A DNA stretch of 64,000 bases from a virus (IMGVR_UViG_3300045996_001613:19578-83577); one strand, 5' to 3'. Counted from the first letter of the stretch, positions 29,004 to 63,926 are shown. Translations and numbers: made by a program. The notes: a model not told the origin generated them from the sequence alone.

Positions 29004-29014
29004 TAGATTCCTAG

Positions 29015-29238: not shown

Positions 29239-29266
29239 CGCCTCTCCACCCGGTCCACACCCTACG

Positions 29267-29338: not shown

Positions 29339-29579
29339 ATGTGCCGGACGCGCCCTCGCTTCCCGGCGTGGGTACCCCGCTATGTCCACCCTTCCGTTTT
29401 ACGGCCAAGGGCACGGCACCCGTCCCAATTTAGGCCGGACTCACCCCTCTGCTATCCGACTTGGGCCACTCCTCTTCACCTCGCGTGACCTCGCCCAACC
29501 GCGGCCTCCCACCATACGTACCGCGTATTTACAGGAACCGTCGGATGTCCCGCAACCCGTCCCACAGTGGAGACTCGTG
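29339..29579 (-). other. Non-coding stretch between tRNAs
   Basis: No gene with a ribosome site and no further T-arm (GGTTCGAnTCC) is found. GTGCCG (29341-29346) and CGGCAC (about 29391-29396) are inverted copies and CCGT-TTT-ACGG is a small hairpin, so a decayed tRNA or small structured RNA is possible. Confidence 0.35.
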
Positions 29580-29652
29580 CTGCGACGGTAGGAATCGAAC
29601 CTACAACCTTCGCCTTAACAGGGCGCTGCTCTGCCTGTTGAGCTACACCGCA
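29580..29652 (-). tRNA. tRNA-Asn (anticodon GTT)
   Basis: Acceptor TGCGGTG/CGTCGCA with two wobbles, D-arm GCTC/GAGC, anticodon loop CTGTTAA (anticodon GTT), and T-arm GTAGG-TTCGATT-CCTAC. The discriminator is G, as in bacterial tRNA-Asn. CCA not encoded. Confidence 0.9.
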
Positions 29653-42927: not shown

Positions 42928-43752
42928 CTAATGTAATATGCCCCATTTTAGCTTACTTGCATACCTTGCACCACCGTCACCACCGCCGCCGGTAATGTCT
43001 ATAACCGTCTGGTTACTGGAGTTGTCGTCCCACGCATTTACGCCGGGACCCCTGAAGTCCATGTTGGGACGCTGTGTCAATGGTACGCCCTCGTTTTCTA
43101 TGATGTGCCCGCCGCTTTGCTGGATTGCTTCGACGATAGTTACATCGCCCACGGCACTGTCGGTCAGGTTGAAGTGGTCGTCCCTAAACCTCAACCTCGA
43201 CCTCTGGCTCATAGAGGTTCCGCCGTCTTGGATGATGTGGCCTGCGAGCTTCGCTTCCAAGGGGTCGAGCATCGCGTCCGTCTCCGCCTCGGTGTAGTAG
43301 CGCGTGTCGTGGTTGTGCGTGGTGCTCGACTTAGTCGCGAGTAGTGCGTCTATCTCGGCATCGGAGTAGGTCTCGGCCTTGGTGTAGTAGTTGTCCAGAG
43401 CAGCGCCGACTTGCTCCCCGCCGAAGTCCTCGTGGAAGTACAGGACCTCCAACGTCGTGCCTGCAGGGATATTGGTGTTGGTTACCGTACCCGCGGCGTA
43501 GTTGATGGTGTAATTAGTCCCCTTGGTGTATACCAAACCATCCGACTGCCGGCGGACCTTCTCAGAATTCTTCACTAGGGTGGTGAATTCCAAGTCTATT
43601 AGTCCCGCGGCAGATGGAGCCGTCTTAACCTCGCTGTAATACTTCTCGGTCTCAGTCGAGCCCCCGAGCTTGATCATAGTCGAGTTGGCTTCGGGGTCCT
43701 GTCTCCGGCTCTTGCCGGTCTTCATTCGTGCTAGTGAGTGTGGTACGGGCAC
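42928..43752 (-). CDS. Tail fibre/appendage protein, 274 aa
   Basis: GTG 43752 overlaps the propeller gene stop and follows GGGGGAG. It contains fibre repeats YYTKAETYSDAEIDALL and HNHDTRYYTEAETDAML and paired HIIQDGGTSMSQRSRLRF/HIIENEGVPLTQRPNMDF units. A Gly-rich C-terminus follows. Probably a short side fibre attached to the baseplate proteins. Confidence 0.75.
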   Translation of the reverse strand: MPVPHSLARMKTGKSRRQDPEANSTMIKLGGSTETEKYYSEVKTAPSAAGLIDLEFTTLVKNSEKVRRQSDGLVYTKGTNYTINYAAGTVTNTNIPAGTTLEVLYFHEDFGGEQVGAALDNYYTKAETYSDAEIDALLATKSSTTHNHDTRYYTEAETDAMLDPLEAKLAGHIIQDGGTSMSQRSRLRFRDDHFNLTDSAVGDVTIVEAIQQSGGHIIENEGVPLTQRPNMDFRGPGVNAWDDNSSNQTVIDITGGGGDGGARYASKLKWGILH

Positions 43753-46700: not shown

Positions 46701-48002
46701 TCCGGGAGCCGGATCTTGAATCCAATTCTTGTCTATAATGGGGCTGGTCGGAGTCTGGACCTCTGCGCCCCACTCCTGATCCTCAGTACCAAGGTTGAGT
46801 TCGTCGCTGGACCCCCATACCTTCAAGGTACACCCCTGCTCCAAGGCGATTCCTTGGTAAGGCCCCGTCTTGATCTTCACTGCAGTAATGCCTATGGGCT
46901 GAAAGGAAAAATCGTAATTGTTGGCAGTGTCGCGGCCTAGCGCCGAGTCGTAATTCCATCCTGTAGTCTGGACATTGTTATCTCCGTCTATAATGGCCGT
47001 CCAGTCGTCCCCGCAAGACACGGCTTTTGCCGTTATGCCCGGAACCTGTACGGGTTCATAGTGCTCTCCGTCTCCATCTTCGTTGAGTCCCAAGCCGGAT
47101 TCCCACCCTAGACCCCACAAGGTGCCATCTTTCTTGATAAACAGTCCGTGTTCATTGCCCGCGGACATCGACTGCACATCGGTGGCTATCACTCGGGGGG
47201 TACGTACATAATCGTTGTCATACGGGTCTAGTCCCAAGGTCCCATAGAACGCGGCTCCCCATCCCAGCAGGGTGCCATTGCCCTTCAACGCATAAAAAAA
47301 CTCGCCTTCCGAGCTGACCGAGACACTAACAATTTCGTCGAGAAAGTGTGCGCGTGTTGGCACGTATATTCCGGAAAATTCCTCCGAGGAACTAGCTTGG
47401 TAGTAGGAGTCGTCCCCCCATGTCCACAGCCGACCGTCGGTGTCAATTGCCATGAAGGTTGCTCCGTTGTGGCCCGCGGCCACCTGCGTGAATTGAGGAG
47501 TGTTGGGTATCTCCTTCCACACATAGTGTTCCCAATTACCGGGAGGGTTCATGGTGTCGTCTACGCCCTCCCCGAGGCCCAGAGAGTTCCCTCCCCAACC
47601 AGCATTGTCACCGACGGCCCACGCGGTGCCATCGTAACGCAGAGCTATTGAATTATCGTAGGTCATTGCTATGTTAAAAACATTGTCCAGACCTAGATAG
47701 TGGAAGGGGTAGGACCACTCCGTGTCGTTGGTGTCTCCGAGGTCTCCGGTTACGTGCTGCCAGTATCCCATAGCGAGTCCATACCCAGCCCCCCACGTCT
47801 TACCATCGTCGGAGACGACAATAGTAGCATCGTACGTTAGTGCAAAGTCTACGAGGGTGGGGCTGCTCGGGATTTCCCCTTCTTCCGCGGTGATCCGTAG
47901 CTGTTCTATCCCCTTACGGCGTCGGGCGTGCCGACCAAACCTCAGCTTGGGCTGTCCGGCCTCCGCGAGGCGACGGCGGAGATGCAGGGGGATTTCCCTC
48001 AC
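43752..48002 (-). CDS. Giant tail protein with RCC1/BLIP-II-like propeller, 1416 aa
   Basis: After a basic 40-residue start, residues 50-830 contain many propeller blades of the RCC1 type, recognised by recurring units with a Gly-rich turn, such as DGKTWGAGYG, DGRLWTWGDD, DGTLWGLG and DGDNNVQTTGW. Residues 835-1090 are a low-complexity Asp/Pro/Phe/Trp linker (NPDTWP, DPNFDP). A Gly-rich hinge follows, then a C-terminal domain (about 1135-1416) that is nearly identical to that of the next gene. The N-terminal propeller is likely a receptor- or glycan-binding head, while the C-terminal domain probably anchors it to the tail. It starts ATG 48002. Confidence 0.8.
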   Translation of the reverse strand: MREIPLHLRRRLAEAGQPKLRFGRHARRRKGIEQLRITAEEGEIPSSPTLVDFALTYDATIVVSDDGKTWGAGYGLAMGYWQHVTGDLGDTNDTEWSYPFHYLGLDNVFNIAMTYDNSIALRYDGTAWAVGDNAGWGGNSLGLGEGVDDTMNPPGNWEHYVWKEIPNTPQFTQVAAGHNGATFMAIDTDGRLWTWGDDSYYQASSSEEFSGIYVPTRAHFLDEIVSVSVSSEGEFFYALKGNGTLLGWGAAFYGTLGLDPYDNDYVRTPRVIATDVQSMSAGNEHGLFIKKDGTLWGLGWESGLGLNEDGDGEHYEPVQVPGITAKAVSCGDDWTAIIDGDNNVQTTGWNYDSALGRDTANNYDFSFQPIGITAVKIKTGPYQGIALEQGCTLKVWGSSDELNLGTEDQEWGAEVQTPTSPIIDKNWIQDPAPGGIIDIDAAGRNNFTGRSVALYANGDVWEWGNLTGSDFAHFEGNVPGGVAIATNEIATYVLKDDGTVWYKGRLTLSSSYWPSEFEQVPGTLPAAFDLQGNPDMELKGEKWHMFCKTGSTLYVIGGSEHGTLGTGGEWVSTGQAFQQRCYQSALTWTQVNFTNVSNTAVEEFATGDESAAAVMGNGVLCTWGYGGFGETVDDFLKSVPDDAGGDYAPLEYPGPSISAAAIEMAGYNLYTTASTQNVFNFGNNNQGQLGEGDTDNLAHWSEWSSVFGQVGPQGEPPFNGAEWVCAGWSSIVADGASEVTAIVGRHAWGSNWYGMLGDPDNTNLYVTTPTHHPHLEAYDKLAAGRYHMFGIINGVAYAWGYDWDTSTVPQPGGGAVRTPSRVMQEPVAGNSITLNPCPNGNPSGGDNSDAQPGDNDPQPEGGDGPTGGPTPWSQPPGPPTGDDPDYPKPFTPDPGNFLPGGGPNFDPNNPDTWPPDFNPEDPNFDPENPDTWPENPENPDFTDPDFDNPNDPNFNNPEFNNPFDPSFDPTDPIFDPTDPTFPNVEGNFPTGPNQFPMPEFSTPMPDDIETPEFPGVMPDYLPGADIAPYFPDPFPADWEYPEMPCFGCGEIGEITIPEFPIDPCFELPAMEGYDPCGSGSGGGSGGGGYDGGGWSGGTGPGSGGDWGGGGDIGVPGDGGGVIPDPWPDGTDIDVVVDPPYSTDDTFAEKTCYTDASARAVLNELAARVGVDPANVTYEDERDRNFTKCFEAGTRIWDAIWWLADYLGYVVFDPGDYNIEIVPPEPLDIFWVHNEYIDLIEFTRNYDAMEVHFGVEVYRPESVRGGVVAIPSFSWLEPVDTMFSVDPTSILRIQALPEWTDQQCIDHAKQQAAMMKTGLNVTIATPLNMRARFRHQIIVAKPSRNFYMRFMIMKTVHSLSSNGNLSIHECVFKGVVDGAVAHQQGLANRDSGYADYFLGRAVAVSPPTISAMGIGGV

Positions 48003-51000
48003 TACACACCCCCGATCCCCATATTGGACGGATTCGCGGGCGAGTAATCTGCAGGCTTGCCGAGGAAGTAATTCGCGTACCCGGACTCAGAGTTCGCGAG
48101 TCCCATCTGGTGTGCTATATCGCCGGTTAGGACGCCTTTGTACATGCATTCGTGAATGGAGAGGTTGCCATTATTGCTCAATGAATGCACCGTTTTCATA
48201 ATCATGAAGCGCATGTAGAAGTTCTTGGAGGGCTTCATGACGATTATCTGGTGACGGAATCTGGCACGCATGTTCAGGGGCGTGGCAATCGTGACGTTGA
48301 GTCCGGTCTTCATCATCGACGCCTGCTGTTTAGCATGATCTATGCATTGTTGGTCGGTCCAGTCTGGCAATGCTTGGATGCGCAGGATGTTGGTGGGGTC
48401 GACGGAGAACACCGTGTTGACTGGCTCTAGCCATGCGAAGGACGGAATTGCCACCACACCACCGCGGACACTCTCAGGTCTATAGACCTCGACGCCGTAA
48501 TATACCTCCATCGCATCGTAGTTGCGGGTGAACTCGATCAGGTCTATGTACTCGCTGTGGACCCAAAAGATATCCAGAGGCTCGGGAGGCACGATCTCGA
48601 CGTTGTAGTCACCGGGGTCAAAGACGACGTATCCAAGGTAGTCTGCCAGCCACCAGATCGCGTCCCATACACGCGTACCGGCCTCAAAGCACTTCGTGAA
48701 GTTGCGGTCACGCTCGTCCTCGTAGGTTACGGTCGCGGGGTCGACACCCACGCGGGCTGTCAATTCCTCTAGGGCAGCGCGTGCGCTGTGGTCCGTATAG
48801 CACGTCTTCTCCGCAAAGGTGTCGTCAGTCGAGTACGGGGGGTCAATGGTGTAGTCTATGTCTCCACCACCGGGCCATGGATCGGGTACCACTCCCCCGC
48901 CGTCTCCGGGCACGCTGCCCCAATCGCCTCCGCCTCCCCAATCTCCGCCGGACCAGTCGCCGCCACCGCCGGACCAATCGCCGCCACTTCCTCCGCCACT
49001 TCCTCCGCCACCTCCCCAATCACCTCCACCACCGCCGCAGGGGTCGTATCCACCCATCGGAGGTAGCTCGAAGCAAGGATCTATGGGGAATTCAGGTATC
49101 GTGATCTCTCCGACCTCTCCGCATCCGAAGCAGGGCATCTCGGGAAATTCAAAGTCGGGAGGGTATGGGTCGGGGAAGATGGGCATGACTGGCGCTCCGG
49201 GCAGGAAGTCGGGGTTGATGTCGCCAAAGTCGTCATATAGGAAGTCGGGCATAGGCTGAGAGAAATCCCCCATTGGGAACTGGTTAGGTCCAGTCGGGAA
49301 GGCCCCCTCGACGTTGGGAAACTCGGCACCGAAGTCACCGAAGTTCGGATCGTCCGGGTTTTCAAAGGACGGGTCGAAGGGTCCTCCGGGGGGCTCAAAG
49401 GTGGGTCCGACGGGCTCTTGGAATGACGGATCGTCTGGCATAAAGTCGTCCGGCCACGTATTCGGATCGAGAGGATCGAAGTTGGGGTCCTCGGGGTCGA
49501 AGTCGTCCGGCCATGTATCCGGGTTGTTTGGATCGAAGGGTGGGGCTCCGTCGGGTAGGAAGTTCCCCGGATCAGGCGTGAACGGTTTCGGGTAGTTCGG
49601 GTCGGACCCATCTGGAGGAGGGGGCGCAGGGGGCTCGTATGGGTTGTAGTTCGGGTCCGTGGGGTCCGGGGCACTGCCATCCGGGTACTGCCCCCCGTTA
49701 CCGCCGTCGGCGTCGCTGTTGTCACCATTGGTGGAGCTACTAATTGGACACATATTCAGGTATACAGTGTCCTCCTCGTCCGTGTACTGTGCGCCTAGTG
49801 ACGGGACTATGTTCTCCTCCACTCCATACTCTTCACCGAGGCCACCGTTGCTTGCCCACTCTCCCCACGCATACAGCACGCCATCTTTTATCGCGGTGCC
49901 GTGCACCGTTCCCAGCGACACCTCGTCGGGGTCGAACGCTTCCAGATTTGTAAGTTGTACAGGCGTGGAGAATATCCGATTGTATTGGTTGCCCTCCACT
50001 CCGCTTGCGTCTATGTCTGCCCTGATTTCCCCCCATGCCCATATGTCGCCGTTCGTGTCCATTACAAAGATAGCTTTCAACCCCCTCGCGAGGAAGCGGT
50101 CTATGGGTGGTAGGTCGGGAGCACCGGGTGTCTGGTCTCCGGATCTCAAGCTATGTACGGAGCTTGAAAACGGACGGTCGCCCATCTCCCCGCTGCTGTT
50201 GCCCCCATAGCAGGTTATAGATCCGTCCGCATGCAGCACTTCGGTATTTTGAGACCCGACGGATATAGCCACTCCCGTGACGCTTGTTAGGTGAGGCACA
50301 CTGGCACCCACTCCGCCGTCCGTCAAGTACCCGGTGTCAATAAGACCGCCAGTGTAGTTGCCACCCCATGTGTATATGTTCCCATTCTCGTCTATTGCTA
50401 CGGAGTGCGTTACCCCGGCCTTCACGTCGACAATTCCGCTGAGTCCCGGATTACCAAGCGGACCTAGAGCCCCTGAGGGAGTGGATTGTCCACAGATCCA
50501 GGTGTCGCCCGGACCGTCTGTGTACTCTCCGCCGATACCAAGCTGCCCATATGACGCGCCACCCCACGCGTATATCTCTCCCGCGGCATTTAGTCCAAAG
50601 ACTCGATTGCCTTCGAGTTGCCCATAGTTGTACCCATTACGGGTTGCTGATATCTTGACAATGCCAGAGAACCCGGATATCTGCACGAATCCTCCGACAT
50701 CGTGATTTATGTACCACACCGTACCATCCGATGTTAGGACAAATATGTACATCCCGGTGCACTGCACCTGTATGGCGTTGGGCACGACGCCGATTTGATG
50801 AGGAAACATTGTCCATTCCTCGGGGAAATAGGCGTAGGGCACGGTCCAGAATCCTCCCCACGCATACACGTTGCCGTCCGAGGTTATGGCGGCGCTGCCA
50901 ACAGCCGTACTGTCAACGTCTATGAAGTTGACCGGCAGGGTTTCGCGCTGCTCCTCCTTATTGGTGATGGCTTTTGCGGGTGTAACCCGATAGTTTGAGT

Positions 51001-52183
51001 TCTCGTCGACTATGCCAATATCATTCAAACCCCAGCACCACAACTCACACCCCGGCATTATTGCAAGGCCAATTTGCGGTCCGGCAAATATCTTGCCAGC
51101 CCCCGTCATAAAGTCCCCGTTACCCTTCTTAGCCTTGCCGAACACGTCGTTGGTTCCCACCGCGGGGGGCACGCGACACAGCACCCCATTACCACTGTAC
51201 CCACACGTCCATATCTGACCAGTGCCCTGTTCTATAAACATGGACCATTCCATGCCACAGGATATATCGGTGGCGAGTAGGTCAGGCACTTGTGTAGGGG
51301 TCTCGTGAGCATTGTAGTTCGCCTGTCCTATCATGTAGCCCTCACCGAGGCCCCACACGGTTCCGTCGGTCTTTATGTACATGGTATGGAACAGTCCGCA
51401 AGACACCTTACTAACGCCAGAGTCCACCTGAGAAGGAGATTGACGCCAGTCCCCCTGCGAGACGCCTGTACCAATGTCCCCGTAGTGCTGGTTTCCCCAC
51501 ATCCACAACGTGTTATCGTTCTTGATTACTCCCACGTGCTCACCGCCAAGGGATATGTACCGTACGCCAGTCAGGTTGTGCACATTCGTGGGCACATTGA
51601 AGCTCAGGATAGAAGGGTGTATCTGATAGTCTGACGCATCGCCCCAACCCCATACGGTGCCGTCGTTACGGAGAGCAAACACAAGGTTTTCAGCAGTGGC
51701 TATTTGTATGATACCGCTTAGGCCGGGAACCTTGACCCAATCATATCCCTGTTGCGCTTCATTCCACGTCGTATCCTGAGATCCCAACCCTAGTGCGCCT
51801 AACCCCTCGCCTTCTCCCGTCACCCACACCGTGCCGTCGTTCTTGAGTACAACCCCTACTTCGTAGTGCGTCATGCGAAACATCTTGGCATTGCCTATCC
51901 CGAGGAAGTGCCACGGATAAGAGTAGTTCTCATAACCAAACTTGTCGGGGTCGTTCTCCCCGTATCCCAGCGGTGCAGCTATGCCGGTACCCCATACCTG
52001 CCCATTGTCTAGCACGGCTCCGCAGGAGTTCCAACCCGCGGAGATATCCGTAGTACCCGCGGTCGCGGCGGCACGGAATGCTTCGGGATGGAATTTGGGC
52101 TTGCGAAAGCGCATGCCAACGCCACCCCCGCGGGCGATACGTCGACGAACGTTTGCAGGAATAGACTTGGGATTGATAGCCAT
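48002..52183 (-). CDS. Paralogous giant tail protein with RCC1/BLIP-II-like propeller, 1393 aa
   Basis: Same architecture as the preceding gene: basic N-terminus (1-40), propeller blades (50-810; units such as NDGTVWVTGEGEG, DNTLWMWGNQH, DGTVWGLGEGYM), Asp/Pro/Trp linker (815-1070), Gly-rich hinge and a C-terminal domain (1113-1393) highly similar to its neighbour. The propeller parts are more diverged than the C-termini. Tandem duplication followed by diversification of the head is the simplest account. ATG 52183 overlaps the upstream stop (TAATG). Confidence 0.8.
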   Translation of the reverse strand: MAINPKSIPANVRRRIARGGGVGMRFRKPKFHPEAFRAAATAGTTDISAGWNSCGAVLDNGQVWGTGIAAPLGYGENDPDKFGYENYSYPWHFLGIGNAKMFRMTHYEVGVVLKNDGTVWVTGEGEGLGALGLGSQDTTWNEAQQGYDWVKVPGLSGIIQIATAENLVFALRNDGTVWGWGDASDYQIHPSILSFNVPTNVHNLTGVRYISLGGEHVGVIKNDNTLWMWGNQHYGDIGTGVSQGDWRQSPSQVDSGVSKVSCGLFHTMYIKTDGTVWGLGEGYMIGQANYNAHETPTQVPDLLATDISCGMEWSMFIEQGTGQIWTCGYSGNGVLCRVPPAVGTNDVFGKAKKGNGDFMTGAGKIFAGPQIGLAIMPGCELWCWGLNDIGIVDENSNYRVTPAKAITNKEEQRETLPVNFIDVDSTAVGSAAITSDGNVYAWGGFWTVPYAYFPEEWTMFPHQIGVVPNAIQVQCTGMYIFVLTSDGTVWYINHDVGGFVQISGFSGIVKISATRNGYNYGQLEGNRVFGLNAAGEIYAWGGASYGQLGIGGEYTDGPGDTWICGQSTPSGALGPLGNPGLSGIVDVKAGVTHSVAIDENGNIYTWGGNYTGGLIDTGYLTDGGVGASVPHLTSVTGVAISVGSQNTEVLHADGSITCYGGNSSGEMGDRPFSSSVHSLRSGDQTPGAPDLPPIDRFLARGLKAIFVMDTNGDIWAWGEIRADIDASGVEGNQYNRIFSTPVQLTNLEAFDPDEVSLGTVHGTAIKDGVLYAWGEWASNGGLGEEYGVEENIVPSLGAQYTDEEDTVYLNMCPISSSTNGDNSDADGGNGGQYPDGSAPDPTDPNYNPYEPPAPPPPDGSDPNYPKPFTPDPGNFLPDGAPPFDPNNPDTWPDDFDPEDPNFDPLDPNTWPDDFMPDDPSFQEPVGPTFEPPGGPFDPSFENPDDPNFGDFGAEFPNVEGAFPTGPNQFPMGDFSQPMPDFLYDDFGDINPDFLPGAPVMPIFPDPYPPDFEFPEMPCFGCGEVGEITIPEFPIDPCFELPPMGGYDPCGGGGGDWGGGGGSGGGSGGDWSGGGGDWSGGDWGGGGDWGSVPGDGGGVVPDPWPGGGDIDYTIDPPYSTDDTFAEKTCYTDHSARAALEELTARVGVDPATVTYEDERDRNFTKCFEAGTRVWDAIWWLADYLGYVVFDPGDYNVEIVPPEPLDIFWVHSEYIDLIEFTRNYDAMEVYYGVEVYRPESVRGGVVAIPSFAWLEPVNTVFSVDPTNILRIQALPDWTDQQCIDHAKQQASMMKTGLNVTIATPLNMRARFRHQIIVMKPSKNFYMRFMIMKTVHSLSNNGNLSIHECMYKGVLTGDIAHQMGLANSESGYANYFLGKPADYSPANPSNMGIGGV

Positions 52184-52575: not shown

Positions 52576-55500
52576 TTACCTACCGGCCCTATCGTGACTC
52601 TTCATTGTCCTCACTACAATAGCCGCGACCTGCTCGGGCGTTATGCCTCCCGGCGGTGCGCTTCCCCTGAATTCAATTATTATATGCTCTGGTTCGCTCT
52701 TTGTCTTCTTTGTGGCAACATTTTCTGTGGGCGCAGGGGTGGTGGACGCGGGTGGGGCGTTCATCGTATGCATCCCGGTAGATACGGTGGTGCCGATTCC
52801 CGGTGTCTCTGGGTTGCGTGTCGCACGCGCCTCTTCCGCGATGGCGCGACGGAGGTCTAGTTCCTCGCGCATATACGACATCTTGTTCTCGATGGCCGCG
52901 ATCTCTGCCTGATGCGCTGTAATAGCCTGTACCGCCGCGTCCTGTGCCGCATCCTTACCGGCCTCCATGACGTTCACCGTGGCGTCTACAACCTCTCCTA
53001 TAGTGTTCTCAATGCCAATCGCCATGCCAGCGCCGGTCTCTTCTCCGATCTCCTTGAATGCGCCCGACGGAGAGCTTACGGCAAGCTCCCTTCTAGCTGA
53101 CATGTATGCCTCCCACGCCATCTTAGCTGCGGCGGACGCAGCCTCTACCGCGGACTCGGAAATCCCCGCGGCAAGACCTTGACCCGACTGCAGACCCAAG
53201 TAATACTGCTGCCTTGTGAGGTCGGCATTGCGCATGGCTATTCGCGCCGCTTCCGCAAGCCGACGCACTTGCGCCTCCGCCTCTGCCCGACCGTCGGCAA
53301 CGCCCACGGCAAAGCTAGTGCCAGCCTCTATTCCGGCACGGCGCATTTCATATGATGCTATGAGTCGCGCACGATCTGCCATCATCTGTGTAGCGCGTGC
53401 CGCCTCGTACGCCTTGGTATTTACACCTTGAGCCAGACCCAGCGCGACCTGTTGGCCCATTGCGTCCATGACCTGCGAGGGGGAGGAGATCTGGAATCGT
53501 GCGCGAGCCGCGTTAATTGCCGATTCCGCGAGTTTCTGGAATACGTCTATGATCTGCTGTGACCTAGAAATCACGCCTCTCGCGAGTCCGGCCATTGCCT
53601 CCTGCCCCGCGGATTCCATACCCTGCATGCGCATCCGGACCATCCCGGATACGTCTCCGATCTTGACCGCGGCATCCTGCACCTGACTCGCGGCACCCGC
53701 CATCCCCTTAGCGAGTCCGTACATTGCCATGCGGCCCTCGCCCTCCATGCGGTGCAAGTGGTGCTGCACGGCCCTTGTGATGTCCGCGACCTTGCCCGCG
53801 GTCTGCTGGACGACTCCACCCTCGCGGTCCATGCCTCCCGCGATGTCTCCCGGCACACGCCCACCAACTTCGTTTAGGCGCTGGTTAGCAACCGAGGCTT
53901 CCGCGGAAGACCGTACCCCCTCGGCCAGCGCCCCTGACGCATCGTTTACGGCACGCTGATTGTCGTATATACCCTGAGCCATACCCGCGGCGGTCTCTCC
54001 ACCGATGCCCGCGAACACTGTAGACGGCGACTGCACGCCGAGGAGTTTCTTCGCGTAGTCTATTGCACCTGTCATGTTGTTCTTGAGGGAGTCGTAGAAT
54101 CCCTTGATCTTGTCCGCGAATCCCTTCTGCAGACCGTAGACAATCATCTGTCCGATTCCCTCAAAGGTGATCCGGAACGCCTCCCCGAGAGTGTTGGCGT
54201 TGGTGATCTGATTTATGTAATCATTGACCTTCTTCCATCCGTCTTGCAGCCATCTCAACGGCGGGAAGTTATTGGTGGCCCACTCCCAAAAGCGGTGTGC
54301 CATGATCTCAAAGGCACGGCGCAGCCACCCGGCCTTGTCGTCGGAGTTCCAGAAATCCTGCATTATGGACCACATATGGGTTGCCCACTTGACACCCGGA
54401 ACGTGCTCGTATATCCACTGCGCCACCGCGGACACCATGCGCTCAAACCCACGACGCAGCCATGCGCCCTTCTCGTCGGACTGCCAGAACTCCTTCATCT
54501 TGTTCCACTGGTTTACGCCCCACGTATATCCGGGAAGGTGATTGTGCAGGAAGTCCGATACGCGGTCCCGGATTCTCTCAAACCCACGAAGGAGCCAAGC
54601 GCCCTTCTCGTCCGACTGCCAGAAATTGACCATTTTCTGCCACTGGTTGAGTCCCCACTGGTATCCGGGTAGGTGGTTTACAAGGAATGCGTGCACTCGG
54701 TCGCGAATACGCTCAAACCCGCGAAGGAGCCAAGCGCCCTTCTCGTCGGATTGCCAGAAGTTGACCATCTTGTTCCATTGGTTCAGACCCCACTGATAAC
54801 CGGGAAGGTGGTTTGTGAGGAACGCGTGCACCCGGTCGCGAATACGCTCGAATGCACGCGTGAGCCATGTTAGCTTCTCTTCAGATTGCCAGAAATTGAC
54901 CATCTTATTCCACTGGTTCAATCCCCACTGGAATCCGGGCACATTATTGACAATCCACTGCACGACTCGCGTCCGGATGCTCTCAAACGCCCTCAGGAGC
55001 CATCCTAGCTTGTCGTCCGAGTTCCAGAAGGGAGCCATCTTCTGCCACTGGTTCTGCGCCCACTGGAATCCGGGCACGTTATTAACGATCCACGTTACTA
55101 CTCGGGTCTTGATGCCTTCAAAGGCTCGCAGGAGCCATCCCATCTTGTCGTCCGAGTTCCAGAATGGGGCCATCTTCTGCCACTGATTTATAGCCCACTG
55201 TGCACCCGGAACGTTGTTCACAATGAACTGTGCAACTCGTCCCACGATCCCGGTGAACGCACGCCACAGCCAGCCCTGCTTCTCGTCTCCGGTCCAGAAG
55301 TTGACCATCTTTTGCCACTGGTTCCACGCCCACTGTGCACCCGGTACGTTGTTTACGATAAACTGACCGACTCGACTTGCGATAGCAGAGAACGCGGTAA
55401 ACAGCCATCCCAACTTGTCTTCTGACTTCCAGAAATTCGCCATAAGGGACCACATATGCGCAGCCCACTTTGCGCCCGGTACGTTTTGGTAGATCCACTG

Positions 55501-58500
55501 TGCCACGCGAGACGCGATTGCAACAAATGCGGTAAATAGCCAGTTTAGCTTGTCCTCGGACTTCCAGAAGTTCGCCATAAGGGACCACATATGTGTAGCC
55601 CACTTAACGCCCGGAACATTCTGATAGATCCACTGACCGACTCGGCTCGCAATTGCCACGAACGCGGTGAATAGCCAGTTGAGTTTGTCTTCTGACTTCC
55701 AGAAATTCGCCATAATAGACCACATGTGCGTGGCCCACTTGACACCCGGTACGTTCTGATAGATCCACTCGCCCACACGGGCCGCGATAGCCACAAACGC
55801 GGTGAACAGCCAGTTGAGCTTATCTTCTGATCTCCAGAAGTTCATCATCAGGGACCACATGTGATGCGCCCACTTTGCGCCCGGAACATTCTGGTAGATC
55901 CACTCGCCTACGCGAGCCGCGATTGCAGAGAAAGCCGTAAATAGCCATCCCAGCTTATCCTCGGATTTCCAGAAATTAGACATCAGGGACCACATGTAGT
56001 AGGCCCACTTCGCACCGGGCACATTTTGCACAATGAACTGTGCGACACGAGACGCAATGGCGTTGAACCCATTCCACAGCCATCCGAGCTTGTCGTCAGA
56101 TTGCCAGAAGGCTTGCATGTGCTGCCACTGTCTCTGCGCCCACTCGTAACCCGGCAGTCTGGACAATACGCCTTGCGCCCGATTAAGCATCCCCTGGAAT
56201 GCGCCCCACAACCATCCGAGCTTATCTTCAGACTTCCAGAAATTGACCACGGCACCCCATATATTCTGCGCCCACGTTAATAGGGGGTTGACCGTGAGGA
56301 AGAGTATCCCCTGTATGAAGCCCCGTATGATGTCCTTGCCCACCTCCATCGCCTTAGTCGAGGGCGACGATATCCCCAGCCACTTGAGGAGTGCGTTCCA
56401 CGCATTGCCGATCCACTCGATAAACGGTCCGATGAGTGGCATGGCCTCCAGTGCCGCGATTACGCCCGCGAGTAGAGCCGAGACCGCGGATCGCGCCACG
56501 CTCTTCCCGGACTCTCGGTCCTGCTCATAAGTGGCCGTCAGCTTGTCCCAAAACGCCTTGACAATGCCCCCGAGGTCGATGGCACTCCATATTCCCCGCA
56601 GCGCAGCCCACACGATATTTACGAGTACATTGCGATCCTTGTCCCATCCGGCTTTCCATCCCTCGATGAACTTGGAGAAGAACTTCCCGATACCCTCGGA
56701 GATTGCGCCACCAGACACGAGATCCGCGACCAGTAGTATCCAACCCGCAGGTCCCGAGAGGAATCCAAGAGCTTTTCCGATCAAGCTCGGACCGAGTTTG
56801 GCCCCAATTCCCGCGAATACTCCGGGTAGCTTGGAGAGGATATTGCTGACCGCGGGTCCTATTCCCGGCAGCTTGGTGCTGACAAACTTGAGCACGTCGT
56901 CCCACAGGGATGCGATCTTCGGTCCGATATTCTCTATGCCGGGTATCAGCTTCTTTAATACGTTCCAGAAAGTTGTAATAGGACCGGCGCTGAAGATGTT
57001 TGCCAGCTTGGACATTCCCGGTATATTCGCGATGATCTTGCCAAACCATCCGACGAGGTCCCCTAGCAGCGTGCCCAGCTTGGGCAGTATCTTGTCCTTA
57101 AGCAGGTTCCATCCGGCTTCTAGTACACGGTGTCCGCCGACTAGACGCCATACAGCAGCCGCGAGTTTTACGAAGTTTGTTACGATAGCGGTGATAATCC
57201 CGCCACCCATGGCCTTGAACAGGACTACCGCGGCAGCACCTTGCACCACAAACTCACGTATAGGCTTCGGCAGACTGTTGAAGGCTCCTAGTATGTCTGC
57301 GAGGAATCCGAAGAAGCTCGCGAACAGCTTCTCGTTGCCGAAGATCAGGTTGACGATCTTGAACAGTTCGTCCCGGAACCGCTGCACGCCATCGCTTTGA
57401 GACAGCTTGTATAGGAAATCTAGCACCTTGAGTCCGAAGGTCACGATATCGCCAAGTAGTGATGCACCTTCTTCGATTAGCGTATTTATCTCCTCTTGGC
57501 CCTTTGCGGACTCTAGGAAGTCGGCCCAATTGCCGGTAGCACCCACCAGAGCGTCGAGCCACTTCTGGAACATCGGTATTGCGGGCTCGATCACCGCGAG
57601 AAGGATGCGGCCCATGTTGATCGCGATGTCTATAGCCGAACTCACCGCTTCGGGCATGGCTTCAAAGATATTTCTGAGCTTCTCTAGGCGTTCTGTCTCC
57701 GAGAAGGTATCCTTGACCCTGTTCCACCCATCGGAGACCTCCAGAGCCACCTGATACGCGATTCTGCCGAGAAATGGCAGTGTCTCTTCAGCCAACTTGA
57801 GAATATCTACCGCCATGTAGTTCAACACGTCCTGTGCTGGCTTGAATTCTTTCTCAAACTCTTCCGCGAAGCCCTTCCATGCATTCTTCAATGCACGCTG
57901 GCTATCTGTGAGCTTGGTGTTCGTATCGTCCGCGGCCTTGCGCACCTCTTCCTGTGCCTCGCGCAGAGCCTCGGTCGCTCGGGCCAGATCTCGCTGCGCG
58001 TTGGCTATATTGGTCTGTGCGTCGGCTTGCGTATTCAGGAGATTTCTAAGCGAGTCTACGGCTCGCTGCTGCGCGTCCGCCACAGCCTTGTTGCCTTCTA
58101 TGCGAGCGTCGCGTACCCGTTGCTCCGCGTCCTTGATGTTTTCCAGACCGTCCTCAAGAGCCCACATGCGATTACGCTCCGCGGTTTTCAGGTTCTCCAG
58201 ATCGCGGATCATCTGCTCACGAGCCCCCTTGATGAGCTTTTGCCCCTCGACCCACGCGTCACCGACACCCTTGACGGCGTTCTTTACCTCCTCAATGTCC
58301 GTCTTTATACGTTCCTTGCCGTCATGTACAGTGTCGCGGTAGGTGTCGAAGGACTCCTTGGCACGGGCCTGTGCATCCCTGACGTTGTTATTCCCTGTGG
58401 CTACGACCTCCTGCCAACGCTGGAACGCCTCCGCGGAGTTTTCCACCGCCGCCGCGACCGCTTCTTCCCCATCTTGCACCGTCTGCTTCCAAGTGTCGTA

Positions 58501-61500
58501 TACCTCCTTGGACCGAGTGATGGCATCTCTAACCTTCTGCTCAGTCTCGGTTACTACGTTGCGGTATTGCCAGTAGGCTTCTTTGGACTTGTTTACCGCC
58601 TCGCGCACCGCCTGCTCACCCTCAACTACGGTGTTGCGATAGTTCCAAAACGCCTGACGGGATTGCCAGTAGGCTTCCTTTATAGCCTCCTCGCCGTCCT
58701 TGACGGTTTGCCTCCAGTTCCAGAAACTTTCGCGTGCTCGTGCCTGCGCGTCCGCGATCTGCTGCTGACCAGAGGCTACCGTGCGCTGCCACCCCACATA
58801 GGCTTCCGCGGCTCGGGTCTGCGCTTCTGCTACACGCTCGGCTCCGTCCACTATGGTTTGCTGTAGTCGCTGGTTGGCGTCATTCAGCCGGTCTTGCGCC
58901 TCCGCGATGCGCTCTTGTCCCGAGGCTACGGTCTCTTGCCACCTCGCGTAGGTTTCGCGGGCACGGCCCTGCGCGTCGTTGATACGCTCTTGACCATTCG
59001 CGACCGTCTCCTGCCACCGTGCATGCGCTTCCGCGGCGCGTTCTATAACGTCATTCAGTCGCTCTTGGCCGCTGGCTACTGTGTCCTGCCATTGCTTGTA
59101 TGCCTCCGCGGAACGCTTCTGCGCTTCCGCAATGCGTTCCTGTCCACTTGTGACTGTTTCTTGCCATTGTGCATACGCCTCCGCGGTACGCTTCTGCGCG
59201 TCCGCTATACGCTCTTGACCATTCGCGACCGTCTCTTGCCATCTGGCATGTGCGTCCGCAGAGCGTTGCACCGCGTCGTTTACACGCTCTATCCCCGCGT
59301 TTACGGTCTCTTGCCAACGTTCGTAAGACTCAGCCGAACGCTTGTTAGCCTCGGCAATGCGCTCCTGTCCCTCGACCAAGGTTTCGCGGTACTTCTCGTA
59401 GCTCTCGCGGGCGCGTATCTGTAATTCGTTAATGCGCTCCCATCCCTCTTGCGTGACGCGTTGCAAGTTAGTCTGAGCCTGCACTACACGTCGAGCCGCC
59501 TCCACGATGCGCTCATTACCCTCAACCACCGACTCCTGCCAGTTTTCATACGCGTCCGCGGCCCTCTCGTTGGCCTCCGCCACCTTCTCGGCACCCTCTA
59601 GCTGTACTTCCGCGACTTTCGCGGTGGCTTCTGCTAGACGCTTCTGCGCGTCAGTAATTATCTTCGCGGCTTCAACCTGCGCCTTACCTATAGCCTCCTG
59701 AGCCGCGGCACTCTCTATGCGGGCCTGCTGTAGGGCTTTCTCTGCCTCGAATACCGAGCGCACCGCGGCCTGTTGGCGATAGTAGGCTTCCTCAACGGCA
59801 CTACGGGCACGCTGCAACTGGTCCGTGCCACCCTCTCGCGCCTGTTGCAACTCGCCCTCGGCCTCGGCAATATCTATGGCATTCTGTTTTTGTGAGAGTT
59901 GTAGTTTTGCGAGATCCTGCTGCGCGTCGATTATCCCCTGATAGTCCCCCACCGCAGTAGCCTCTGCCAACTGCTGCTGGGCCGCGGCCAAGTCGTACGC
60001 GGTGCCTATCTGATCCTGACGCGCCTTGTCTACATTTAATTCAAGCTGTGCCATCCGGATAGGCTCACCCGACATGACCTGATTGAGTTCTAGCTGTGCA
60101 TCCTTGAACGCTTCGGTGGTGTCGGTCAGATCCCGACGCGCCTCTATTAGCGCATACTCTCGTTCTGTAACATCTGCCGCGGCTTCCGCGGCCTTCTCAT
60201 GGGCGCTCGCGATAACATCTGCGGCACGCTCGTACGCCTCTTCCAGATCGGTTTGAGCCTCGGCCTGATCCTCAATCGCGTCAATGATATCCTCGCGTAC
60301 GTCCTGCTCCACCTTCGCGATCTTTTGCACCGCGTCTTGGTAGTCTTCGTAGTTATCCTCGATGTCCTCGTGCACATCGGCAACCGTTTTGGCAAGGTCC
60401 TTCTCTGCCTCTCGTATATCCATGATGGCTTCCGCGATATTTTCCGCGAGGTCCTGCTGTGCCTTCGCAATGTCGGCCAGGTTGTCTTGATAGGATTCCC
60501 ACGCGTCCTCCGCGGCCTTAGCCGCGTCGATCTCCGCGTCTTTGACATCCTCTATGGTCTCTATGTAGTCTTCCCATGCTTCCGCGTTATTTTCCGCGGC
60601 GTCCTGTTGGGCTTCGGAAATCTCTCCGATGGTCTCTACATAGTCAGCCCACGCTTCCCTGACGTCCTTTGCGACCTCTTCCTCGGTCTCGCGCAGTTCA
60701 TCTAGGGTCTCCATGTAGTCGACCCACGCTTCGGTGTTAGCCTTCGCCGCCTCTGCTTCCGCCTTGCGAAGGTCGTCAATGGTCTCTATATAGTCGACCC
60801 ACGCTTCCGCGTTGGCCTCCGCTATCTCTATCTCGGTATCGCGTACGTCTTCAACCGCGTCTTGGTAATCTTTCCATGCTTCCGCGTTGTCCTTCGCGAC
60901 CTCAGTCTCAACTTTGCCCACTTCCTGAACCGCGGATATGTAGTCGCCCCACGCCTCCGTGTTGTCCTTCTGTGCCTCTTCTTGGGCGTCCAGCAGATCT
61001 GCGATGGCCTCCTCGCGATCTTCCCACGCCTCCGCGGTGGCTTGCGCCGCGTCGATTTCTGCTTCCCGTACACCATCTACCGCTTCAAGGTAATCGCCCC
61101 ATGCGTCAGCGTTCGACTGCGCTACGTCAGCCTCGACCTGCTTCAGATCTGCCAGAGAGTCCTGATAGTCTTTCCATGCATCTTTATTCGCACGCGCTAC
61201 ATCCTGCTCGACCTCTTTCAGGTTTTTAAGACTCTTCTCGTAGTCTTGCCATGCATCTTTGTTAGCAGCCGCGGCCTCCTGCTCAGTCCTCTGCACGTCA
61301 CGGACGCTTTCTTCGTAATCCTGCCACGCCTCTTTCTGCTGTTTGGCCGCGTCGATCCTCGCGTCCTTGATGTCCGCAACAGAGTCTTGGTAGTCCTTCC
61401 ACGCGCCAGCCGAGGCTTCCGCTGCCTCCTTTTCCGCTTCCCCTATGGCTTCACGAGAGTCAATGAAGTCGGACCATGCATCAGCCGCGTCCTTTGCCGC

Positions 61501-63147
61501 TTGTGCCTCTGCTTCCTTTACGTCTTGCAGGGATTCCTGCCAATCCTTGAAGGCGTCCGCGTTAGCCTCCGCAACGTCTTGGCGGGTCTCCTTGAGTTGA
61601 GACATCGCATCAGCTACCTCGGCCCATGCCTCTTTTACGCCCTGCGCCGCTTCGCGCTCCGCTTCCGCGACCCCCTCAACTGAGTCTTGGTAGGTTTGAC
61701 GGGCTTGCTGCACCGCTTCGTTCTGTTCAATGACGGTACGGGCATAGTCCTGCTCGGCTTGTTTGCGCTGCTCTATCGCCTCCTGTATATTCTTGGTGCG
61801 CTCGCGCTCGGCTTCGTCTATACCTTGAAGGCTGTCTTGATATTCTCTCTGTGCTTGCGCTACGGCTTCCGCGGAATCCTTACGCACCTGCGTGAGGTTC
61901 CGCTGTGCGTCTGCTACGCCCTGAGCCGCCTGCTCCTCTGCCTCTAGTGCTGCAGACAGTTGCTCACTCGCGGCCTTGTGCTCTCCAATCGCCTTTATAG
62001 ACGGGGCGAACGCGGCTACCACGAGGGCCGCGGCCCCACCCAGCACGGTCAGTCCCGCGGCGAGCGTCGCGACAATGCCAATGAGGGGCGCGAATGCGGA
62101 GAGTGCGAGAACGATGCCGATGCGGGTCAGGGTCATAAGCACGGCACTGGTGGTCCGCGATGAAGCGGTCAGCCCGCCAAGTATGGAGGTAAGACTACCG
62201 ACCGCGACACGCATTGCGGCAAATCCCGCGAGGGCTTTGCCGGAGTCAATATCCGCCTTGATACGGATGGTCTCGCCGTTAAGGTCGCGTACCCCCGCCT
62301 CGATCTCGCGGATCGCCTGCATGACCTCCTCGTCGCCCTCCGCGGTCATTTTCATTCGCGCCGTCTTGAGAGCGATGGAGTCCATCAGCTTGCGAATAGT
62401 GTTGATTTCCCTGCGAGCCTCGGAGCCATCCCCGGTAATCTTGATCTGTCCCACCTGCGACGAGAGTGATGCTAGGTTCGCCTTGAGTGACTGTAGCTCT
62501 TGGGTTACACGATCAGAGTTCAAGGTGGCCTTGATCTCAAGATCTTGGTCAATCTTGGCACCCTCGACCTCGATACGGGCCTTCGCTACCTCCCCATCAA
62601 TTTCTTCCAGAGCAGCATTAAGGGCTTCGACTCTGGCTGTGCCGTTGTCGATGCCCTCAACGTCTGCATCTATTCGTATGGTTTCTTTACGGAGGGCATT
62701 GCGGGTACGGATTAGCTCTGCGAGCTTCGTCCGGGCCGCGTCGAGCCCCGCGGTCTCAATTGGCCCTATCTTCATCTCGCGAAGCACGGATGCCTGACGC
62801 TCAAGATCCTTCATCTTGGCCTCAGCCTGCTCGCTATGCATACGCGCACGTATGTTTACGACGCGCTCGCGATTACTCAGGATGTCTTGCAACTGTTGAC
62901 TTAGTTCGGCATAGAAGTACATTCTACGGGCCTGCGTAAGTTCGCCCGATGCTAGTTCTTTCTTGAGATCCTTGACCCTCTTCTCGCCATCGTCGAACCC
63001 CTCCATCATGAGGGTAGCGGTGGCGGTTACGTCCTCATTGCCGAGACGCTGCGCCTCTCGCCTAGTCTCCTTCAACTCGCGCTGAAGCTGGTCAAGCTGT
63101 GAACGTACGCGAACTACAAACTCTAGTTCTCTATCGCTTGGGTTCAA
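52576..63147 (-). CDS. Tape measure protein, 3523 aa
   Basis: Identified by position after the chaperone pair, extreme length, coiled coils and C-terminal SPS...G..G..GI repeats. Layout: charged coiled coil (1-300); hydrophobic segment (310-400); seventeen 25-residue units of EAWxDY type (about 505-930); further 25-residue units with WQETVASGQERI pattern (1215-1615); hydrophobic helices (1870-2200); fifteen 45-residue Trp-rich units (2304-2978); C-terminal repeats with SSPSxxF. By the usual rule of about 1.5 angstroms per residue the tail would be roughly 530 nm, if the whole protein is extended. No peptidase motif recognised. Confidence 0.9.
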   Translation of the reverse strand: MNPSDRELEFVVRVRSQLDQLQRELKETRREAQRLGNEDVTATATLMMEGFDDGEKRVKDLKKELASGELTQARRMYFYAELSQQLQDILSNRERVVNIRARMHSEQAEAKMKDLERQASVLREMKIGPIETAGLDAARTKLAELIRTRNALRKETIRIDADVEGIDNGTARVEALNAALEEIDGEVAKARIEVEGAKIDQDLEIKATLNSDRVTQELQSLKANLASLSSQVGQIKITGDGSEARREINTIRKLMDSIALKTARMKMTAEGDEEVMQAIREIEAGVRDLNGETIRIKADIDSGKALAGFAAMRVAVGSLTSILGGLTASSRTTSAVLMTLTRIGIVLALSAFAPLIGIVATLAAGLTVLGGAAALVVAAFAPSIKAIGEHKAASEQLSAALEAEEQAAQGVADAQRNLTQVRKDSAEAVAQAQREYQDSLQGIDEAERERTKNIQEAIEQRKQAEQDYARTVIEQNEAVQQARQTYQDSVEGVAEAEREAAQGVKEAWAEVADAMSQLKETRQDVAEANADAFKDWQESLQDVKEAEAQAAKDAADAWSDFIDSREAIGEAEKEAAEASAGAWKDYQDSVADIKDARIDAAKQQKEAWQDYEESVRDVQRTEQEAAAANKDAWQDYEKSLKNLKEVEQDVARANKDAWKDYQDSLADLKQVEADVAQSNADAWGDYLEAVDGVREAEIDAAQATAEAWEDREEAIADLLDAQEEAQKDNTEAWGDYISAVQEVGKVETEVAKDNAEAWKDYQDAVEDVRDTEIEIAEANAEAWVDYIETIDDLRKAEAEAAKANTEAWVDYMETLDELRETEEEVAKDVREAWADYVETIGEISEAQQDAAENNAEAWEDYIETIEDVKDAEIDAAKAAEDAWESYQDNLADIAKAQQDLAENIAEAIMDIREAEKDLAKTVADVHEDIEDNYEDYQDAVQKIAKVEQDVREDIIDAIEDQAEAQTDLEEAYERAADVIASAHEKAAEAAADVTEREYALIEARRDLTDTTEAFKDAQLELNQVMSGEPIRMAQLELNVDKARQDQIGTAYDLAAAQQQLAEATAVGDYQGIIDAQQDLAKLQLSQKQNAIDIAEAEGELQQAREGGTDQLQRARSAVEEAYYRQQAAVRSVFEAEKALQQARIESAAAQEAIGKAQVEAAKIITDAQKRLAEATAKVAEVQLEGAEKVAEANERAADAYENWQESVVEGNERIVEAARRVVQAQTNLQRVTQEGWERINELQIRARESYEKYRETLVEGQERIAEANKRSAESYERWQETVNAGIERVNDAVQRSADAHARWQETVANGQERIADAQKRTAEAYAQWQETVTSGQERIAEAQKRSAEAYKQWQDTVASGQERLNDVIERAAEAHARWQETVANGQERINDAQGRARETYARWQETVASGQERIAEAQDRLNDANQRLQQTIVDGAERVAEAQTRAAEAYVGWQRTVASGQQQIADAQARARESFWNWRQTVKDGEEAIKEAYWQSRQAFWNYRNTVVEGEQAVREAVNKSKEAYWQYRNVVTETEQKVRDAITRSKEVYDTWKQTVQDGEEAVAAAVENSAEAFQRWQEVVATGNNNVRDAQARAKESFDTYRDTVHDGKERIKTDIEEVKNAVKGVGDAWVEGQKLIKGAREQMIRDLENLKTAERNRMWALEDGLENIKDAEQRVRDARIEGNKAVADAQQRAVDSLRNLLNTQADAQTNIANAQRDLARATEALREAQEEVRKAADDTNTKLTDSQRALKNAWKGFAEEFEKEFKPAQDVLNYMAVDILKLAEETLPFLGRIAYQVALEVSDGWNRVKDTFSETERLEKLRNIFEAMPEAVSSAIDIAINMGRILLAVIEPAIPMFQKWLDALVGATGNWADFLESAKGQEEINTLIEEGASLLGDIVTFGLKVLDFLYKLSQSDGVQRFRDELFKIVNLIFGNEKLFASFFGFLADILGAFNSLPKPIREFVVQGAAAVVLFKAMGGGIITAIVTNFVKLAAAVWRLVGGHRVLEAGWNLLKDKILPKLGTLLGDLVGWFGKIIANIPGMSKLANIFSAGPITTFWNVLKKLIPGIENIGPKIASLWDDVLKFVSTKLPGIGPAVSNILSKLPGVFAGIGAKLGPSLIGKALGFLSGPAGWILLVADLVSGGAISEGIGKFFSKFIEGWKAGWDKDRNVLVNIVWAALRGIWSAIDLGGIVKAFWDKLTATYEQDRESGKSVARSAVSALLAGVIAALEAMPLIGPFIEWIGNAWNALLKWLGISSPSTKAMEVGKDIIRGFIQGILFLTVNPLLTWAQNIWGAVVNFWKSEDKLGWLWGAFQGMLNRAQGVLSRLPGYEWAQRQWQHMQAFWQSDDKLGWLWNGFNAIASRVAQFIVQNVPGAKWAYYMWSLMSNFWKSEDKLGWLFTAFSAIAARVGEWIYQNVPGAKWAHHMWSLMMNFWRSEDKLNWLFTAFVAIAARVGEWIYQNVPGVKWATHMWSIMANFWKSEDKLNWLFTAFVAIASRVGQWIYQNVPGVKWATHMWSLMANFWKSEDKLNWLFTAFVAIASRVAQWIYQNVPGAKWAAHMWSLMANFWKSEDKLGWLFTAFSAIASRVGQFIVNNVPGAQWAWNQWQKMVNFWTGDEKQGWLWRAFTGIVGRVAQFIVNNVPGAQWAINQWQKMAPFWNSDDKMGWLLRAFEGIKTRVVTWIVNNVPGFQWAQNQWQKMAPFWNSDDKLGWLLRAFESIRTRVVQWIVNNVPGFQWGLNQWNKMVNFWQSEEKLTWLTRAFERIRDRVHAFLTNHLPGYQWGLNQWNKMVNFWQSDEKGAWLLRGFERIRDRVHAFLVNHLPGYQWGLNQWQKMVNFWQSDEKGAWLLRGFERIRDRVSDFLHNHLPGYTWGVNQWNKMKEFWQSDEKGAWLRRGFERMVSAVAQWIYEHVPGVKWATHMWSIMQDFWNSDDKAGWLRRAFEIMAHRFWEWATNNFPPLRWLQDGWKKVNDYINQITNANTLGEAFRITFEGIGQMIVYGLQKGFADKIKGFYDSLKNNMTGAIDYAKKLLGVQSPSTVFAGIGGETAAGMAQGIYDNQRAVNDASGALAEGVRSSAEASVANQRLNEVGGRVPGDIAGGMDREGGVVQQTAGKVADITRAVQHHLHRMEGEGRMAMYGLAKGMAGAASQVQDAAVKIGDVSGMVRMRMQGMESAGQEAMAGLARGVISRSQQIIDVFQKLAESAINAARARFQISSPSQVMDAMGQQVALGLAQGVNTKAYEAARATQMMADRARLIASYEMRRAGIEAGTSFAVGVADGRAEAEAQVRRLAEAARIAMRNADLTRQQYYLGLQSGQGLAAGISESAVEAASAAAKMAWEAYMSARRELAVSSPSGAFKEIGEETGAGMAIGIENTIGEVVDATVNVMEAGKDAAQDAAVQAITAHQAEIAAIENKMSYMREELDLRRAIAEEARATRNPETPGIGTTVSTGMHTMNAPPASTTPAPTENVATKKTKSEPEHIIIEFRGSAPPGGITPEQVAAIVVRTMKSHDRAGR
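54214..56238 (-). repeat. Fifteen 45-codon (135-bp) repeats in the tape measure gene
   Basis: Each unit starts W-x-S-[ED]-[DE]-K, followed by WLFTAFxAI, RVxxWIYxNVPGxKWA and MWSLM. The copies diverge gradually from one end to the other, as in unequal crossing over. Identities are highest in units 3-7. Confidence 0.85.
60358..61632 (-). repeat. Seventeen 25-codon (75-bp) repeats in the tape measure gene
   Basis: Each unit fits [ED]AWxDYxxSxxDxxxxExxxA, where Trp and Tyr occupy fixed positions; phase 25 residues equals seven helical turns with a stutter. A second family of 25-residue units lies at about 58300-59500. Confidence 0.8.
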
Positions 63148-63150
63148 CTG

Positions 63151-63567
63151 TTAGGGAACGTCCCTTCCGGATTTACCCGACTTAGACTTCTTCTTAGGTC
63201 GGGGTTGCGGTACGTGGAAGTAGTCCCACTTACCTTGCGCCCTACCCTTGCGGATAACGTCTTTGGCTTTATCGGGGTCTTGGCGCTGGAGATCCCACAA
63301 GCCATATATGCTGTGCACTATTCTAAACGAATGCCACACACGATGCGAGCCCGGAAGTGTTTTATCTGGTAATTCATGGTCACCGAAGCTCAAGTAGTTC
63401 CAGTATGCCACGAGTGCCGGTAAAGGTCTAGGGTAGCCATAGGGAGAGGGCTGGTTGAAAAAGTCTTCGCCCTCTCCCTCTTGGTCCGCGGTGCCGTCTA
63501 GTTCGATTAACCAGTTTAGTATCTGGTCACGAAGCTCCCCTAAGTAGGGTCCTCCTGCGCCTCTGAG
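63151..63567 (-). CDS. Second tail assembly chaperone frame (gpT-like, via -1 frameshift)
   Basis: This frame is open from 63567 to the stop at 63151 and overlaps the end of the first chaperone gene in the -1 frame. It has no ATG, GTG or TTG before GTG 63411, so the 52 codons upstream can only be read by frameshifting from gene 63540-63926. Context (directly before the tape measure) and size match lambda G/GT-type chaperones. The peptide has ELRDQILNWLIELDGTADQE and a basic C-terminus. Confidence 0.75.
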   Translation of the reverse strand, partial: LRGAGGPYLGELRDQILNWLIELDGTADQEGEGEDFFNQPSPYGYPRPLPALVAYWNYLSFGDHELPDKTLPGSHRVWHSFRIVHSIYGLWDLQRQDPDKAKDVIRKGRAQGKWDYFHVPQPRPKKKSKSGKSGRDVP

Positions 63568-63926
63568 TCAGCCGTCGCCGCGATATCCTCAGGCAGGGCA
63601 TTGAGGTCGCGAATGTGGTCCGCGATCTGCTCCGTAATGTACCCCTTGAACCGCTTGAAGGTCTTCTCTTCGATGGGCAGCTTGCCGTTCTCATCCTCAA
63701 AGGACCAGTCCTTGATGGATACCTTGAAGTCGTACACACGCTGCCGGTCGAGACGGATACCCGATCCGCCGCCTCGCCTGCCAGTGCTCGGGTCTATGAT
63801 CATGTTTGAACGATGCCGAATCTGCTCCTCAGACATCTCCGCCAGTTCTACCCACTCGGTATCACCGTCACGGAAAATGATGTCGCGGCGGAAATATTCG
63901 CCATCTTCTACGAAGAATCTACTCAA
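63540..63926 (-). CDS. Tail assembly chaperone (gpG-like), 128 aa
   Basis: Acidic, mostly helical protein (residues 20-128) with a Gly/Arg loop (GRRGGGSGIRLDRQ), located directly before the tape measure gene. It guards the tape measure during tail assembly. ATG 63926 is 42 bases after the promoter -10 box. Its last codons overlap the -1 frame of the extension. Confidence 0.8.
   Translation of the reverse strand: MSRFFVEDGEYFRRDIIFRDGDTEWVELAEMSEEQIRHRSNMIIDPSTGRRGGGSGIRLDRQRVYDFKVSIKDWSFEDENGKLPIEEKTFKRFKGYITEQIADHIRDLNALPEDIAATADSEAQEDPT

Follow-up and report, generated by a model that had tools for sequence, protein, structure and literature searches.

A tandem array of tryptophan-rich 45-residue units in the tape measure protein of a phage

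The tape measure gene and its neighbors

The stretch of DNA analyzed here (the window, 64,000 nucleotides) comprises positions 19578-83577 of an 83577-base virus record in IMG/VR. The initial 19.6 kb of this record carries, on the minus strand, a capsid gene identified by tblastn and probable tail tube, protease, portal and terminase genes, which were read from sequence and gene order. These genes and the tail genes of the window follow the usual siphovirus arrangement when read through the record ends, which suggests a circularly permuted, nearly complete record; the tail tube gene sits at the end of the permuted record opposite to the gene under study. That gene and the two open reading frames (ORFs) preceding it are as follows:

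52576-63147, minus strand: tape measure protein (TMP) gene, 3523 aa (open frame, PHROG matches and gene position; the TTG start codon is putative, taken from a mechanical listing)
63151-63411, minus strand: 86-aa ORF lying between the TMP gene and the 128-aa ORF, in a different frame (position and open frame)
63540-63926, minus strand: probable tail assembly chaperone ORF, 128 aa (assigned by its position upstream of the TMP gene)

The product of the 52576-63147 frame is, as judged from its matches and gene position, a phage tail TMP. PHROG tape-measure families match amino acids 2050-3523 (phrog_5493, E 6.6e-39; phrog_4372, E 2.5e-31), and the gene lies downstream of the tail tube gene and the chaperone-like ORFs, with the distal tail genes coming after it. 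The two ORFs before it (63151-63926, minus strand) are in different frames and arranged like a frameshifted tail chaperone pair, the 86-aa ORF being a possible frameshifted chaperone extension; no canonical slippery heptamer was found at this pair, and a PHROG search with both ORFs gave no match.

A search of IMG/VR identified two contigs of one close relative with an MCP 71% identical, 3300045996_002301 (G002) and 3300042904_000145 (G001), which were the sole relative group found. The features of the window TMP, all on the minus strand and listed from its N-terminal side, are:

61987-62151, minus strand, aa 333-387: strongest hydrophobic segment and best transmembrane candidate of the TMP (KD19 peak 2.39)
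60238-61662, minus strand, aa 496-970: first 25-residue coiled-coil array, AEAWxDYxE type (repeat scan and comparison with G002)
58258-59457, minus strand, aa 1231-1630: second 25-residue coiled-coil array, ARWQETVASGQERI type (repeat scan and comparison with G002)
56419-57252, minus strand, aa 1966-2243: several hydrophobic segments between the coiled-coil region and the 45-residue array (KD19 1.6-2.05)
56359-56379, minus strand: LGISSPS motif directly before the array (conserved in G002)
56242-56289, minus strand, aa 2287-2302: upstream half unit NPLLTWAQNIWGAVVN, corresponding to unit positions 30-45 (profile score)
54220-56241, minus strand, aa 2303-2976: 15 tandem Trp-rich units (unit listing, identity matrices, lag test and alignment)
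55300-56109, minus strand: units 2-7, first block (identity matrices and alignment)
54355-55299, minus strand: units 8-14, second block (identity matrices and alignment)
54022-54042, minus strand: LGVQSPS motif past the array, at the start of a C-terminal SPS-type domain (motif scan)

Layout, conservation and age of the 45-residue array

The original prediction placed fifteen Trp-rich units in this TMP, and they were confirmed at 54220-56241, the earlier coordinates being 3-6 nt off; unit 1 consists of 44 aa and units 2-15 of 45 aa each. Identity at a lag of 45 was 0.693, compared with a mean of 0.062 and a maximum of 0.097 in 2000 shuffles. The upstream half unit had a profile score of 10.1, whereas none of the 2811 other 16-mers of the TMP exceeded 3.7. 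W, F and P do occupy fixed positions as had been claimed: F1, W2, W10, F15, P31, W35 and W40, together with K7 and L11, are invariant in units 2-15, and the 15-unit alignment gave the same nine invariant columns. Position 25 is W or F in all of units 2-15, and the seven aromatic positions (1, 2, 10, 15, 25, 35 and 40) are kept in at least 13 of these units, while P-G is found at 31-32 in every unit but unit 15, which has P-P. Overall, W makes up 10.8% and F 6.7% of the array. The units had also been described as hydrophobic, which is apt insofar as they are aromatic, but with a conserved S-[DE]-[DE]-K that recurs in each unit and a net charge of +23 for the array they are amphipathic. The proposed distinction from a coiled-coil tape was borne out by the period of 45 and the P-G breaks; the 25-mers form arrays of their own, and the 45-residue array is not a continuous 25-residue helical repeat.

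Among the units, the gradient of divergence that had been reported proved to be a block structure, with units 2-6 representing one type (units 3-6 share 84-93% aa identity) and units 8-13 another; the end units 1 and 15 rank among the most divergent. Unit 7 looks like a mosaic of a first half resembling units 3-6 and a second half resembling unit 8, and unit 14 likewise looks composed of a first half resembling units 12/13 and a second half resembling units 4/5. On our reading of the sequences, these two mosaics suggest older rearrangements within units.

An AlphaFold2 model of five units, of which the helix pattern alone was used owing to its low confidence (pLDDT 36), placed helices at 6-29 and 33-47 of every unit. 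Each unit is therefore probably made up of two predicted helices, of ~24 and ~15 residues, broken at P31-G32. Structure prediction of several units thus returned a repeating two-helix pattern, and the models (pLDDT 36 and 48) contained no usable tertiary arrangement.

The mean synonymous difference between units (pS) was 0.70, which is near saturation, and the nonsynonymous difference was 0.31; for units 4, 5 and 6, dN was 0.05 compared with a dS of ~2. Synonymous sites are thus saturated and nonsynonymous change is lower, which shows that the units are old and that purifying selection acts on the protein. A recent expansion of the array was rejected on the grounds of this saturation. The longest identical DNA run between units is 31 nt, which together with the saturation indicates that the units are not recent copies and that little identical DNA is available for recombination today. 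The view that the array offers an easy means of changing tail length by recombination is hence not borne out for this array as it stands.

Repeats in the near relative and in other tape measure proteins

Global alignment of the window TMP with that of the relative gave 47% identity over 1956 aligned residues, and the stretch before the array is 46-49% identical to G001/G002. Compared with G002, indels of 25, 25, 50 and 50 aa fall in the first 25-mer array and one of 175 aa (7 x 25) in the second, all of them missing in the relative, and one 25 is missing in the window TMP; all lie inside the 25-mer arrays. Most of the length difference within the aligned part stems from these multiples of 25; irregular gaps are also present near aa 196-224. 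Since the length difference is mainly in exact 25-aa multiples, the changing unit in this pair is the 25-mer, which appears to serve as the tape's length unit in these two phages. A 25-mer would span ~3.8 nm at 0.15 nm per residue, close to the rise of ~42 Å per tail ring in lambda (PMC10721106); by analogy we infer that there may be one 25-mer per tail ring. In the TMP of RcGTA, repeats of 12 and 13 residues start with large side chains (PMC7296036), and 12 + 13 = 25.

The alignment with the relative extends up to an LGIxSPSTK...RGFIQG motif, which the array of the window follows immediately; right behind this motif the relatives carry another array of 44-residue units, LAQFLKNPVQRIKALVSQAKAALGRAWNNVWNSALNIVRRFSPR, in which W, F and P are likewise fixed:

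L017 116-907, minus strand: 44-residue array of the relative (neighboring copies with 90-100% DNA identity)

Both relative contigs end within this array; for a comparison of copy number, the sole relatives found thus carry a different unit in an array cut by the contig ends. In contrast to the old units of the window, the copies of the relative are near-identical and recent, and its array contains 4.6% W and a charge of +37 over 216 aa. Comparison of the 45-mer with this 44-mer using hhalign and hmmsearch, with shuffled, permuted and reversed decoys, showed no homology. In the near relative, then, the array is replaced by a different array at the same place in the TMP. Such an exchange between proteins that are 46-49% identical on the N-terminal side is what would be expected if the array were mainly a spacer or filler, for which any ~44-residue helical repeat would suffice and the aromatics would have no specific partner; this is also in keeping with the finding that the TMP of TP901-1 tolerated the change of one repeat to alanines (PMC5099701). 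However, nine positions are invariant over 15 units despite saturated synonymous sites, which points to a constraint on the residues beyond length alone, and we regard the filler explanation as unlikely.

Tandem repeats with fixed aromatic residues are known from other TMPs. Belcaid et al. (2011) described repeats of 11 and of 11-11-18 residues, variable between phages (PMC3271669), that like the units of the window are arranged in tandem in a TMP and keep W and F in constant places; W/F repeats of this kind were interpreted as tape units and proposed as chaperone anchors (PMC3271669). Unlike those repeats, the array of the window has a unit of 45 aa (44 + 1; only unit 1 is 44 aa long), so that its period is neither a multiple of 11 nor 11-11-18, and it contains a P-G break and is far more regular, with 10.8% W. 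A scan of the window TMP for patterns 1 and 2 of that study (11 and 11-11-18) found neither. The TMPs of the lactococcal phage p2 (40-residue repeat, a period reproduced in our analysis) and of TP901-1 (29 repeats) also possess a long aromatic array toward the C-terminal side, which in TP901-1 comes after hydrophobic segments (PMC5099701). Their periods of 40 or 11/18 differ from 45, there is no sequence relation, and no SPS match was found in either TMP. The array of the window most likely belongs to a known kind, the aromatic tandem repeats of TMPs, in a form that is unusual: the unit has 45 residues and a P-G break, and the array is highly regular and rich in Trp. Taken alone its value is modest, as a striking example of that kind.

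In tblastn, the C-terminal region of the window TMP matched TMPs from actinophages, among others. We assembled a small sample of 18 public TMPs (L029-L046), all sharing the SPS-motif domain, six from tblastn with the C-terminal region of the window TMP alone and 12 from tblastn with the SPS region of SuMoo; they were chosen by similarity, and related phages among them are not independent. Of the 18, 16 had a periodic array close to the motif that scored above 60 shuffles, with a period of 44 in eight, 22 in two, and 88, 33, 43, 46, 56 and 57 in one each; the two Peduoviridae TMPs (FLC5 and Dobby) had no periodic array near the motif. The commonest period near the IHSPS motif is therefore 44 (4x11), several of the 44-mers contain LPG and W/F at fixed places, and arrays of 43-46 residues are similarly placed in many other TMPs. 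The arrays of LL-Ku (Lactobacillus), AR1075-1 (Clostridioides), Trogglehumper (Rhodococcus) and nd12 resemble that of the window in lying beside an IHSPS-type motif with nearly the same period; they differ in that the period is 44 rather than 45, and their profile similarity to the window array is insignificant. The same was true of the 44-mers of other TMPs in hhalign and hmmsearch, and because reversed decoys scored equally well, homology to these arrays was not shown. A literature search for a 44-residue TMP repeat yielded no description.

The array itself gave no match by tblastn against public phages at E values up to 10, and peptide-pattern scans of IMG/VR, run both with it and with a five-unit alignment, revealed no relative of the array. 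NCBIfam yielded nothing, Pfam gave PF09997 (a membrane-protein model) below cut-off and unrelated weak matches, PHROG matches to the array alone were weak and to families of unknown function, and a PDB profile search returned chance matches only (E 0.3 or worse). Scans of bacterial and archaeal genomes found no TMP relative; the terminase relatives that they yielded were distant and came with no matching TMP. These results bear on a possible specific activity of the array in host entry, such as binding of cell-wall material as the tail tip opens. A distal position, as deduced from the C-terminal domain, and the occurrence of similar arrays in TMPs across several host groups, Gram-positive above all, would suit such an activity; yet Pfam, NCBIfam and PHROGs contained no catalytic or binding domain and the PDB no relative, and we consider it very improbable.

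Membrane propensity and possible role of the array

The original prediction also held that the array could insert in the host membrane as a channel. Within the array KD19 peaks at 1.23, and the biological-scale insertion energy, summed without weighting by position, is +5.7 at its lowest, so that neither value points to a transmembrane helix of ~19-20 hydrophobic residues. A membrane-active or channel-forming segment that inserts at DNA entry would agree with the abundance of W and F, with a favorable Wimley-White octanol sum of -7.1 for LNWLFTAFVAIASRVAQWI and with the hydrophobic region preceding the array. A favorable octanol sum is, though, as expected of an aromatic amphipathic helix. TMPs are moreover thought to form the passage for DNA (PMC10721106, PMC5099701). 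Against this stand the KD19 and insertion values, the conserved D/E/K residues in every unit, the better transmembrane candidates elsewhere in the TMP, and the array of the relative, which is far less aromatic and strongly basic. As judged from its hydropathy, the array is not plausible as a membrane-spanning channel, and the channel claim gained no support for the array itself; we find a membrane-active role of any such kind quite unlikely.

We consider it reasonably probable that the array acts as structural tape in the distal tail, with the aromatic residues as packing or chaperone points. The array, with ~690 residues of two-helix units, would lie between the hydrophobic segments and the C-terminal SPS-type domain, toward the host-facing end of the tail. 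Here the orientation in the tail is taken from lambda gpH, the C-terminal helix of which ends in the tail tip (PMC10721106); it is, together with helix packing, chaperone docking and the length contribution, something that we infer. The W and F residues at fixed positions would serve as packing points that hold the TMP chains together inside the tube during assembly, and they may dock the tail assembly chaperones. The segment would fill the distal lumen and, if extended, could add up to ~100 nm of tape (674 aa x 0.15 nm), the tail expected from all 3523 aa being ~520-530 nm at 0.15 nm per residue, as calculated from the sequence. On infection, the array would leave the tube with the remaining TMP, ahead of the DNA. 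Direct support for repeats as tape comes from TP901-1, in which deletion of 347 aa of TMP repeats reduces tail length from 118 nm to 65 nm (PMC5099701); the tolerated alanine swap in the same phage, in turn, weakens the idea that the aromatic residues are essential anchors.

A broader proposal, which we offer tentatively and hold to be possible though doubtful, is that TMPs with an SPS domain carry a distinct adjoining module of kinked two-helix repeats of ~44 residues (43-46). The module would be set apart from the 25-residue length units, would pass between near relatives as a cassette and would occur widely in phages of different hosts, and it would serve the distal, host-entry end rather than length; of the examples so far, the array of the window would be the most regular and the richest in Trp. 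The analysis helps to tell apart two parts of the TMP that are often merged, the 25-residue coiled-coil units and the ~44-residue array beside the SPS motif, the latter occurring in many phages and open to exchange between near relatives. Once the two are treated separately, the repeats that determine tail length and the function of the distal array can be put to the test.

Several other genes of the window were noted. Two adjacent, related tail proteins of 1416 and 1393 aa (43752-48002 and 48002-52183, both minus strand) have RCC1-type repeats at the N terminus, linkers rich in proline and glycine, and C-terminal domains that resemble each other; they are probable duplicated distal tail proteins. 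A phage-encoded sulfatase domain (36462-37760, minus strand; Pfam PF00884, E 5.4e-35) adjoins the tail genes, a match to a papain-like cysteine protease (PF00112, E 4.9e-7) is located at 33385-34071 (minus strand), and three tRNA genes, for Pro, Met and Asn, were observed at 29014-29652 (minus strand).
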